From positions 1-64,000 of the forward strand of contig NC_022792.1 in the NCBI RefSeq assembly GCF_000504085.1: DNA of 64,000 nt, in the 5' to 3' direction. Below, in pieces: positions 18,887-21,194 of the stretch; the stretch's first letter is position 1, and every line of letters begins with the position of its first letter. This DNA is from Pseudothermotoga elfii DSM 9442 = NBRC 107921 (GTDB lineage: Bacteria > Thermotogota > Thermotogae > Thermotogales > DSM-5069). Below the pieces are notes generated by a model. It ran no database searches. It was not told the DNA's origin and saw only the letters and a list, made by a program, of their open reading frames with translations. A program made the translations under genes and the position numbers.

Positions 18887-18912
18887 GAGGGGCAGTTGCC
18901 CCTCATATTTTT
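18887..18912. terminator. bidirectional terminator between clp and lacI
   Basis: Stem GAGGGGC-AGTT-GCCCCTC (18887-18904). To the right is ATATTTTT; read leftward the stem is followed by TTTATTT. It starts 2 bp after the clp stop and overlaps the lacI stop codon, so it can serve both convergent genes. Confidence 0.8.
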
Positions 18913-19907
18913 GCAACAGATTGTCGCTCGATAAAATGTGCTTTTAAAACTGTCCTGCTCGTTTTTTTATCGTGAAAGATATTGTTGATCAAAAGAGTGG
19001 CAGCTATCAGACCCATTTGTTCTGGTTCCTGAGCAACACAGGTAATTGGAGGTTCAAAAATTTCATTCCAGTGAGAATCATCAAAAGAAACAAGCGAAAT
19101 GTCCTGCGGGACTTTCAATCCAGTTTCTTTGATGACCTTCATAACACCAAGCATCATCAAATTGTTGCTCACGATAAGTGCTGTGGGTTTTCTGCATAGA
19201 GAAAAAAACCTCTTGGCTGCTCGATATCCTCCCTCTTCGCTTGATTCTCCGTCTATAATCCACTCATTCTGAACAGTTATTCCAAGCTCCTTACATGCCT
19301 TCAGAACCCCATTAAGTCTTTCCTTTCCAGTAAAAGATCTGGCCCTTAATGTCATTATTCCAATTGTTCTATGTCCACTTTTGTAAAGATATGTCACAAG
19401 CTCCCTAACGCCAGATTCATTATCTGTTATGACATAACTCACATCTACATTTGGTACTATCCTGTCGAAAAAAACAAGCGGAATTCCTGATTCTGCAATT
19501 TTTTTGTATATAGTTCTGTTACCTCCAGAATCAACTGGAGCAGCAAGAATGCCTTCTACTTTCTGACTTGCAAGTGTTCTAAGATTCTCCACTTCTTGAT
19601 CAGGATCTTCATTAGTAGAACACAAAAGCAGGTGATACCCTATCGGCCGAAGGACTTTTTCCATCCCGCGAACAGTATATGCGAAAAAAGGATTAGAAAT
19701 ATCTGGTATCAAAACACCTATAATTTTAGTCTGACCTTTTTTCAATCCCATCGCTGTCAGATCCGGAAGATACCCCATCTTCTCGGCTAATTGTATTATC
19801 TTTTCTCTGAGTTGAGCACTCACACCGGGTTTACCATTTAAAGCACGAGACACAGTTGATGCATTGACACCAAGTTTTTTTGCAATATCTTTGATCGTTA
19901 TTTTCAT
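18903..19907 (-). CDS. LacI-family transcriptional regulator
   Basis: Sugar-responsive repressor. N-terminal LacI helix-turn-helix (ITIKDIAKKLGVNASTVSRAL, residues 2-22) with hinge MGYLPDLTAMGLK, then a periplasmic-binding-like effector domain from about 62 (IIGVLIPDISNPFFAYTVRGM) ending in QEPEQMGLIAATLLI; 334 residues, full length. The ATG overlaps the stop of the IscB-like ORF (TGATG), and no SD is visible directly upstream. A good SD and promoter lie about 1 kb upstream on the other side of the inserted element. It divergently faces the isomerase-lyase-TRAP operon and probably controls it through the CGCAAACGAATGCG site at 21153. Confidence 0.93.
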   Translation of the reverse strand: MKITIKDIAKKLGVNASTVSRALNGKPGVSAQLREKIIQLAEKMGYLPDLTAMGLKKGQTKIIGVLIPDISNPFFAYTVRGMEKVLRPIGYHLLLCSTNEDPDQEVENLRTLASQKVEGILAAPVDSGGNRTIYKKIAESGIPLVFFDRIVPNVDVSYVITDNESGVRELVTYLYKSGHRTIGIMTLRARSFTGKERLNGVLKACKELGITVQNEWIIDGESSEEGGYRAAKRFFSLCRKPTALIVSNNLMMLGVMKVIKETGLKVPQDISLVSFDDSHWNEIFEPPITCVAQEPEQMGLIAATLLINNIFHDKKTSRTVLKAHFIERQSVAKI

Positions 19908-20704
19908 CACAACCCAGCGCAGGAGACTGCATCTTCTTTAAGATGAAGAAAAGTGCGCTGTTCCCTCCTTTCTAACATTAGCATCTTTGTTAAGTCTTGA
20001 TACTTAGCTGATGAATGAATTTTTTCCCCATTCAATGTACGTATATCAAAATACCCAGAACTCAAACTATAAATTATACCAACTTGATTTTTGTACCTCA
20101 CTTTATCAAACCTTCTATGAATACCTTTCTTGCCAGATAATTCAGATTTATACCCTGCTCTCCATAAACAATATTCTCTTACATCGAAAAAACCTTTTTG
20201 TGGACCTTCTTGATATTGACTGCCTTCTACGTCAGGGTTGACTATTTTGTGTATATCAAACGGTGCTATTTCTACTTTTGCAATCGGCAGTATCTTGGTT
20301 ATTAAGTTAACAAGTCTGTTGTGTGCATCAACCTTCCATTGAAGACTTGGTGACAACCAATTATTTCGTCTCTTTCTATTTAGAAACCTTGTTTTTCCAT
20401 ATCTTCTGTTTCTTCTATACTCTCTTCTCTCTAAAAGCAGTTTCTTTATATCTTGTCGCAGTTCTACTTCAATGCTGAACAGTTTTTGTTTGTCTGTTAT
20501 TGCTGAAACGCCAGCTGTTTTTGAACCTGTGTCCATTCCAGCAATAACAGGTTGTGTGTATGTTGTTGTGTCATACAGCAACTGGATTGTAAATGGTTCT
20601 CTTCTAACAACTTTTGCAAGACCCTGTTTTAATAATCTTCTTACTTTTCTATGCCTTTTTGTTGGCATTAATGGTTTGCTATCTTTTGAAATTACATAAA
20701 CCAC
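19907..20704 (-). CDS. iscB: shortened IscB-like OMEGA protein (no HNH, no RuvC-III)
   Basis: RNA-guided nuclease relative, 265 residues, GTG start. Visible in order: PLMP domain (VYVISKDSKPLMPTKR, 2-17; VRREPFTIQL), RuvC-I with its Asp (IAGMDTGSKTAG, about 54-65), arginine-rich bridge helix (ERREYRRNRRYGKTRFLNR, about 92-110), RuvC-II Glu (AKVEIAPFDIHKIVNP, about 142-157) and VREYCLWRAG, where IscB normally enters HNH. Then it jumps to the C-terminal target/PI-like region (RRFDKVRYKNQ, SSGYFDIRTLNGEKIH). HNH and RuvC-III are missing without breaking the frame; intact IscB is about 400-500 residues. It is preceded by an omega RNA. Domain assignments are by eye against remembered IscB sequences. 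Confidence 0.85.
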   Translation of the reverse strand: MVYVISKDSKPLMPTKRHRKVRRLLKQGLAKVVRREPFTIQLLYDTTTYTQPVIAGMDTGSKTAGVSAITDKQKLFSIEVELRQDIKKLLLERREYRRNRRYGKTRFLNRKRRNNWLSPSLQWKVDAHNRLVNLITKILPIAKVEIAPFDIHKIVNPDVEGSQYQEGPQKGFFDVREYCLWRAGYKSELSGKKGIHRRFDKVRYKNQVGIIYSLSSGYFDIRTLNGEKIHSSAKYQDLTKMLMLERREQRTFLHLKEDAVSCAGL

Positions 20705-20956
20705 ACAATCACTTCCAATTGTCTTTTGACGATAACTCAGGGATTATCCCTGTAAGGTGCTCATCCCCAATGTTAGACAGGCTTGTTATGTGCAGATCAC
20801 TGCCCTTACCCCTCAGGACTGTTTAGACCTGCACGACAGAGTCTGGAACTTGAGCAGCATCCCAAGGTGTAACTGTCTAACGTAGCCACTTATGTGGCTG
20901 AGGGTAGTCAATCAGGCTTTTTTCAAGCCCCCGCTTTCTATAGTGGGCAGTTGACT
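19908..20956 (-). mobile_element. IscB/OMEGA (HEARO) element inserted in lacI leader
   Basis: About 1.05 kb comprising the omega RNA and the shortened iscB-like ORF. On the minus strand the left boundary is placed just before AGTCAACTGCCC and the right boundary just before ATGAAAA, the lacI start codon. HEARO/IscB elements are reported to sit next to ATGA or GTGA. Removing the element joins AGAGGAG-TGTAAG directly to ATG, rebuilding a well-spaced Shine-Dalgarno for lacI. No transposase gene is present, so it would have needed a TnpA in trans. Boundaries are good to a few nucleotides. Confidence 0.75.
20705..20956 (-). ncRNA. omega RNA (HEARO RNA) of the IscB-like element
   Basis: About 250 nt directly upstream of the IscB-like start, strongly structured. 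Helices visible on the RNA strand: AGTCAA (from 20956) with TTGACT (to 20906); GGCTT-GAAAA-AAGCC (20929-20915); AGCCAC-ATAA-GTGGCT near 20899-20884; long-range CCCTCAG with CTGAGGG (near 20904 and 20812); TTAGACAG with CTGTCTAA (near 20880 and 20770); CAGGGATAATCCCTG near the ORF. The pattern and wording match my memory of the HEARO/omega RNA consensus. The guide would be the about 16 nt preceding the scaffold (20972-20957). Confidence 0.75.
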
Positions 20957-20972
20957 CTTACACTCCTCTTTT
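20957..20972 (-). other. predicted omega RNA guide = original lacI RBS region
   Basis: Minus strand AAAAGAGGAGTGTAAG, immediately 5' of the omega RNA scaffold where IscB guides are encoded. It contains AGAGGAG, the presumed original lacI Shine-Dalgarno. The sequence across the element, ATGAAA, fits the NWRRNA motif described for one IscB. Thus the guide would match the element-free lacI allele. Confidence 0.5.
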
Positions 20973-21023: not shown

Positions 21024-21110
21024 TTCTGAAAATCAATGATTTTTTACCGTTCTGAGGATATTATAGTGGAAATTCTCCTTGTTTCACTTTTTTGCATCAT
21101 TTTTTCATAT

Positions 21111-21152: not shown

Positions 21153-21166
21153 CGCAAACGAATGCG
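21153..21166 (+). promoter_or_regulatory. candidate LacI-family operator
   Basis: CGCAAACGAATGCG, a near-palindrome centred on CG (10 of 14 positions symmetric), the usual form of LacI-family sites. It lies between the -10 box and the SD of the isomerase gene, where binding would block transcription. Confidence 0.5.
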
Positions 21167-21194
21167 TTACTTTATATAGAAAGGAGTGTTACTT

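Follow-up and report, generated by a model that had tools for sequence, protein, structure and literature searches.

A partly decayed HEARO/IscB element inserted exactly between the ribosome-binding site and the start codon of a lacI-family gene, and the recurrence of its Thermotogota relatives at translation starts

HEARO RNAs reportedly precede ATGA or GTGA, an observation attributed to Weinberg in 2009. Nuclease-dead TnpB proteins with a guide RNA serve as regulators (TldR), and IStrons relieve the cost of their own insertion at the RNA level by splicing. Within OMEGA elements it is established logic that a flank-derived guide recognises the empty site and that the motif is the insertion site (PMC11870625), and in the homing or gene-drive model of TnpB/TnpA the nuclease cuts the empty site, with the result that the element is retained (PMC11870625). 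OgeuIscB works with a guide of 16-17 nt and an NNRR motif (PMC9640706), and IsrB, from Desulfovirgula thermocuniculi and others, which keeps a full RuvC domain and nicks DNA, has the measured, start-codon-like motifs NTGA, NTG and NTGG (PMC9581776). In translation, hairpins in the leaders of phage T4 genes 38 and 25 shorten the distance between Shine-Dalgarno sequence and AUG from 22 to 5 nt and from 27 to 11 nt, respectively (PMC3014915).

The window, by which we mean the whole stretch analysed (the first 64,000 nucleotides of the Pseudothermotoga elfii DSM 9442 contig NC_022792.1), carries on its minus strand a HEARO/IscB element of 1048 bp (19908..20955, GTCAAC...GTTGTG). It is a partly decayed element of the ISC-type OMEGA kind, inserted exactly between the ribosome-binding site and the start codon of a lacI-family gene, with the following features.

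18903..19907, minus strand: lacI-family regulator, intact (PF00356, PF00532, PF13377)
19902..19907, minus strand: ATGAAA, target-adjacent motif and lacI start codon (sequence; motif table)
19907..20704, minus strand: iscB-like ORF, 265 aa (PF14239 RRXRR; PDB IscB as best match; comparison with sister copy L006)
19915..19960, minus strand: predicted terminal hairpin between the element Shine-Dalgarno and the host ATG (RNAfold at 37 and 70 C)
19964..19971, minus strand: element-borne Shine-Dalgarno-like AAAGGAGG (same block in 31 of 36 elements)
20752..20955, minus strand: omega RNA scaffold (Rfam HEARO RF02033, 145.5 bits against a cut-off of 83, E 2e-30)
20956..20971, minus strand: predicted 16-nt guide AAAGAGGAGTGTAAGA, abutting the scaffold start at 20955 (boundary calibrated on sister empty sites)
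20963..20969, minus strand: native lacI Shine-Dalgarno AGAGGAG (sequence; aligned with AAAAGAGG upstream of lacI in relatives)
21060..21087, minus strand: promoter-like site GTGAAA-16-TATAAT, 10/12 (pattern scan only)

With HEARO/IscB OMEGA elements (ISC group, IS200/IS605-like) the locus shares the RF02033 scaffold, which lies 5' of iscB on the same strand and starts with the GTCAAC at 20955 that is position 1 of the Rfam family, the PLMP and RuvC-I parts of the protein, a guide derived from the 5' flank, and a motif on the other side; unlike them, its IscB is without HNH and RuvC-III. Insertion beside the motif is precise and without target duplication, the boundaries being taken from sister copies and from near-identical empty sites of sister elements. 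At the lacI junction itself, three same-genus relatives are homologous on both sides and without the element, and at about 70% identity they are too diverged to fix a single boundary base. The promoter-like site, from a pattern scan that returned three matches where 1.2 were expected, could drive guide, omega RNA, iscB and lacI together. Between lacI and a divergent sugar isomerase gene lies a LacI-type operator-like palindrome, CGCAAACGAATGCG, at about 21154-21168, and a similar sequence is found upstream of lacI in two same-genus relatives.

The preliminary description of this locus had placed the guide at 20957-20972, and in that register the minus strand has AAAAGAGGAGTGTAAG separated from GTCAAC by the single base A20956, which belonged to neither guide nor scaffold and had no explanation. 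Empty sites were sought within the genus of the sister elements by means of nine of their joined flank pairs, and in orthologous empty sites of up to 98-99% identity the flank meets ATGAA right at the base before GTCAAC, with nothing gained or lost: ...CAAAAAGGGGGAAA[G/A]^ATGAAATATTC, ...GGTTAGAAGA^ATGGAAAAAAAC and ...CTGGAGGTAA.TT^ATGAATATAAAA, where the caret marks the junction. Because these sites place the element start at GTCAAC, A20956 is most likely flank, and its assignment to the element is contradicted; the guide abuts the omega RNA as proposed, in a register shifted by one base to 20956-20971, and the reconstructed empty lacI site reads AGGAGTGTAAGA^ATGAAA. The other elements of the proposal, namely that the guide copies the flank 5' of the scaffold and covers the lacI ribosome-binding site, and that the adjacent ATGAAA, which is the lacI start codon (19907-19902, minus strand), fits NWRRNA, hold as well, and ATGAAA also fits NNRR. 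Only the empty allele would be recognisable, as had been argued, given that in the occupied site AGTCAA follows the guide as originally placed and no motif is present. Since the guide is the flank, it matches the empty site by construction, and such matching is ordinary OMEGA logic and no surprise; the original observation is correct up to one base and ordinary for its family.

Two further suggestions, that a dead complex might bind an empty allele or ribosome-binding-site-like matches elsewhere, find no counterpart in this genome. There is no empty lacI allele in a single-copy genome, and the recommended genome search for guide matches followed by a motif returned a single exact match, the element's own flank, where the motif is absent. 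With up to three mismatches, 45 sites in the whole genome match the guide, against 79 for a reversed control pattern, and a fitting motif is lacking behind all 30 that were inspected; off-target regulation by this guide was rejected on these grounds.

That the protein is dead, as the same description had supposed, agrees with its domain content. It is an RRXRR/PLMP-RuvC-I protein similar to IscB (PF14239, 191 bits; PDB IscB, E 1e-35, best match ending at residue 178), in which, by comparison with the sister copy L006, an in-frame deletion joins SGKKGI to HRRFDKV, keeping the N-terminal part and a C-terminal TI-like part and removing HNH and RuvC-III; many Thermotogota copies have ORFs of 410-450 codons. 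It resembles IsrB in being without HNH and differs from that nickase in the deletion of its RuvC-III segment. The genome (2.17 Mb, one contig) holds seven HEARO copies, four of them exactly before start codons (lacI, cobT, gntR, cinA); L006 has a nonsense change and a frameshift, L005 an internal deletion different from that of the window copy, and L001, L002 and L004 are short derivatives without iscB. No intact IscB of this kind was found in the genome, and a protein-based scan of genome contigs gave only three distant relatives. Since the window copy has lost HNH and RuvC-III and an intact copy was not found elsewhere in the genome, the system is unlikely to cleave DNA in this organism; the locus, which recalls the TnpB/TnpA model in that cutting of the empty site would retain the element, departs from it in that no active nuclease was found in this genome. 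Between the window IscB and L006, dN/dS is 0.14, a value that probably mostly predates the deletion, the data being unable to separate the time before it from the time after.

The three short derivatives share a mini-ORF (VVYVIS...ERRxQR...AGL) that runs in frame from the iscB start to a TGATG on the host start codon. A cobalamin riboswitch (RF00174, 102.7 bits) immediately precedes the cobT copy L001 (1269-1436 and 1501-1705), whose omega RNA may for this reason be regulated by vitamin B12. The sole full-length Y1 transposase found in the genome (L169, 1481632-1481994) adjoins a weak (36%) IscB-like match and might be what mobilises the HEARO copies.

Across the phylum, HEARO is present in 24 of 103 Thermotogota genomes, from which 60 regions were taken; 36 elements, six of them from this genome, had a right end that could be located. 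Over the first five positions of the right flank these read A35 T35 G36 A34 A32, and an RF02033 match together with an ATGAA right flank in 36 elements is far beyond chance; the family motif is consistent with the NTGA, NTG and NTGG of IsrB. A junction was counted as start-like where the ATG at the right junction (in L147, just after it) begins an ORF of 60 or more codons and has an in-frame upstream stop within 40 codons of the joined flank, and by this definition 27/36 elements qualify, compared with 54/598 ATGA[AGT] sites in the window (9%; p=2.6e-21). The left flanks have a median anti-Shine-Dalgarno energy of -8.3 against a background of -1.8 (p=3e-9), and in start-codon insertions the left flank carries what reads as the host gene's Shine-Dalgarno sequence. 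In Thermotogota, HEARO/IscB elements as a rule have a predicted guide taken from a ribosome-binding site and, for their motif, a start codon.

The host genes comprise cobT, gntR, cinA, rimO, yifB, purH, cas1b, mutL, a Dam-type methylase, gltX, rplC and rpoD, and the profiles of most begin at the first residues; gltX, rplC and rpoD are essential in well-studied bacteria. At rplC the native Shine-Dalgarno is cut in two (GGAG^GTGAA, where relatives read CTGGAG^GTGAAAAAATG), and at rpoD, whose start codon abuts the element, relatives read CCCT^ATGGAGGTAAACTAATCGATGGAAAAG and the inserted allele is without 18 bases bearing the native Shine-Dalgarno. Plasmids from outside Thermotogota also carry elements that end at the annotated start codon of the following gene, which encodes a thioredoxin in Anoxybacillus, a hypothetical protein in Finegoldia and a metallophosphoesterase in Cetobacterium; Natranaerobius is an exception (ATGAATTGA).

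Nine of the 36 elements lie elsewhere than at starts, among them L145, which is within an ORF. The motif of L145 (genome G097) is ATGGAA, and the ORF that it hit is uninterrupted in sister species. In genome G060, which has 17 HEARO hits (L109-L123), 13 copies with a resolved end have the motif ATRATAA, none opens an ORF of at least 80 codons at the junction, and in most the iscB ORF is shortened to at most 211 aa; this is apparently an expanded non-autonomous family, and the idea that it targets stop codons was rejected, its sites being mixed and several of them inside ORFs. In two species, different HEARO elements (L131 in G058, GTCAACAACCCACC; L139 in G063, GTCAACTACCCTCG) follow nearly the same left flank, L139 before the start of the Dam-type methylase, which reflects either repeated insertion at one site or the replacement of one element by another.

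Insertion leaves the native lacI Shine-Dalgarno within the guide and now 1 kb from the lacI start codon, and the element end offers a candidate replacement. Over their final 44-93 nt these elements run through AAAGGAGG, a hairpin and a short tail up to the host ATG, and a AAAGGAGG-type block occurs in 31/36 elements, a frequency that is inflated and not unbiased in that many ends were located partly by means of the block itself. In folds predicted at 70 C, the host organisms being largely thermophiles, 25/35 leave an effective spacing of 8-14 nt between Shine-Dalgarno and ATG out of a linear 44-93 nt, with poor spacing or a paired Shine-Dalgarno in some (L139, L155). The window copy is predicted to have 56 nt of linear and 10 nt of effective spacing with the Shine-Dalgarno unpaired, so that a distant Shine-Dalgarno would be brought to working distance by a hairpin, as in the T4 gene 38 and 25 leaders (PMC3014915); the T4 case is a fixed phage leader, whereas here it is the end of a mobile element.

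Because AAAGGAGG encodes Arg-Arg near the IscB C terminus, in frame in most copies, and is located where a Y1 transposase would read the element end, its conservation has other possible causes. Four lines argue that the putative Shine-Dalgarno is more than a transposase signal or coding sequence: it is kept past the iscB stop in L140 and L145 (AAAGGAGG) and in an Acidithiobacillus plasmid element (AGGAGG); the 13 G060 copies, away from starts, have AAAGGATTT and the terminal hairpin but no Shine-Dalgarno; a second family (L164-L166, with six relatives showing the empty site of L166) ends in GGAG at the target GTGAA and regenerates GGAGGTGA; and in the orthologous pair L146/L160 the terminal 120 nt differ by 2 changes, against 100/1236 in the broken iscB (p=0.006). 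Start-codon motif, guides from ribosome-binding sites and an apparent element-borne replacement site are well supported by comparison.

The reading that we favour, and hold to be fairly probable, is that these elements insert at translation starts, borrow the host promoter to express their guide RNA and replace the ribosome-binding site that they split. Boundaries, motif, identity of the guide, IscB deletion and recurrence at start codons are read directly from the sequences. Because the motif for insertion and nuclease is ATGA(A), elements would insert at start codons and in the same orientation as the gene, and the host promoter would then transcribe the 5' UTR as guide, followed by omega RNA, iscB and the host gene in one transcript. 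Active IscB would cut only the empty allele, in which the ribosome-binding site is followed by ATGAAA, and the element would be retained. The cost to the host would be relieved because the 3' end of the element carries its own Shine-Dalgarno, AAAGGAGG, which the folding out of the terminal hairpin would bring to about 8-14 nt from the host ATG; the translation steps are ones that we infer. Relief of insertion cost at the RNA level would recall IStrons, with a replacement ribosome-binding site here in place of splicing. In the window, cutting of the empty allele appears to be lost with HNH and RuvC-III, no intact IscB having been found in the genome, and what remains is probably the replacement ribosome-binding site of lacI.

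The same loci might also be explained by an ordinary OMEGA element, in which the guide is the flank, ATGAA the motif of transposase and nuclease, the starts the survivors of selection, and AAAGGAGG with its hairpin a transposase end and IscB C terminus. Flank-derived guides and motifs equal to insertion sites are indeed the known rule (PMC11870625), the Arg-Arg codons and the nine insertions away from starts fit such a view, and the start-codon excess may reflect survival rather than targeting; set against it are the Shine-Dalgarno kept past the stop, its absence from G060 despite the kept hairpin, the intact Shine-Dalgarno gained by the second family through a different end design, and the intactness of normally essential genes that have lost their native site, and we rate it as rather unlikely. 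A possible, though doubtful, variant attributes host translation to termination and reinitiation, with ribosomes that end iscB or the mini-ORF restarting at TGATG and the Shine-Dalgarno across the hairpin playing a minor part. The iscB-like stop in the window is indeed TG completed by the A of the host ATG, the TGATG overlap occurs at all six junctions of this genome and in L132 and L167, and each of the three shortened copies, like the deleted L003 and L005, has retained a frame that terminates at it, whereas in most other families, which keep Shine-Dalgarno and hairpin, the frame stops 7-39 nt short of the host ATG. In the favoured account the overlap may aid host translation in this genome's copies, as a second route through reinitiation.

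Domestication of the HNH-less IscB and its guide as an RNA-guided binder that represses a lacI-type start site would parallel TldR, likewise nuclease-dead and guided by RNA, and the in-frame deletion, the kept RNA-binding N terminus and TI-like part and the dN/dS of 0.14, probably mostly from before the deletion, could be read in this way. It is nevertheless very improbable: the arrangement is known from a single genome, the element is absent at lacI in three same-genus relatives, so that, unlike TldR, there is no conserved locus, no second target with a motif was found among the genomic near matches inspected, and the differently deleted L005 looks like decay; domestication at lacI was rejected as a candidate. 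Silencing of lacI by the insertion, with the gene now passively kept, would agree with a native Shine-Dalgarno about 1 kb from the start codon, but the frame and domains of lacI are intact and a new Shine-Dalgarno and stop-start overlap are in place, which makes this explanation improbable.

None of the publications consulted describes the splitting and replacement of ribosome-binding sites by HEARO/IscB, which is no proof of priority. A broader proposition, towards which we lean only slightly, is that HEARO/IscB elements are built for starts, with ATGA, a start codon, or GTGA, the latter half of a Shine-Dalgarno, as motif, a guide RNA made from the host promoter that is the host ribosome-binding site, and a 3' end that supplies a new one, and that host genes, some of them essential, come to depend on the element. 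If true, this would explain why the motifs of IscB and IsrB resemble NTG(A), how a guide RNA that begins outside the element comes to be transcribed, and how elements reside harmlessly before genes such as rpoD, rplC and gltX; a host losing the element would forfeit the gene as well, even where the nuclease is dead, and natural, portable ribosome-binding ends would be in ready supply.
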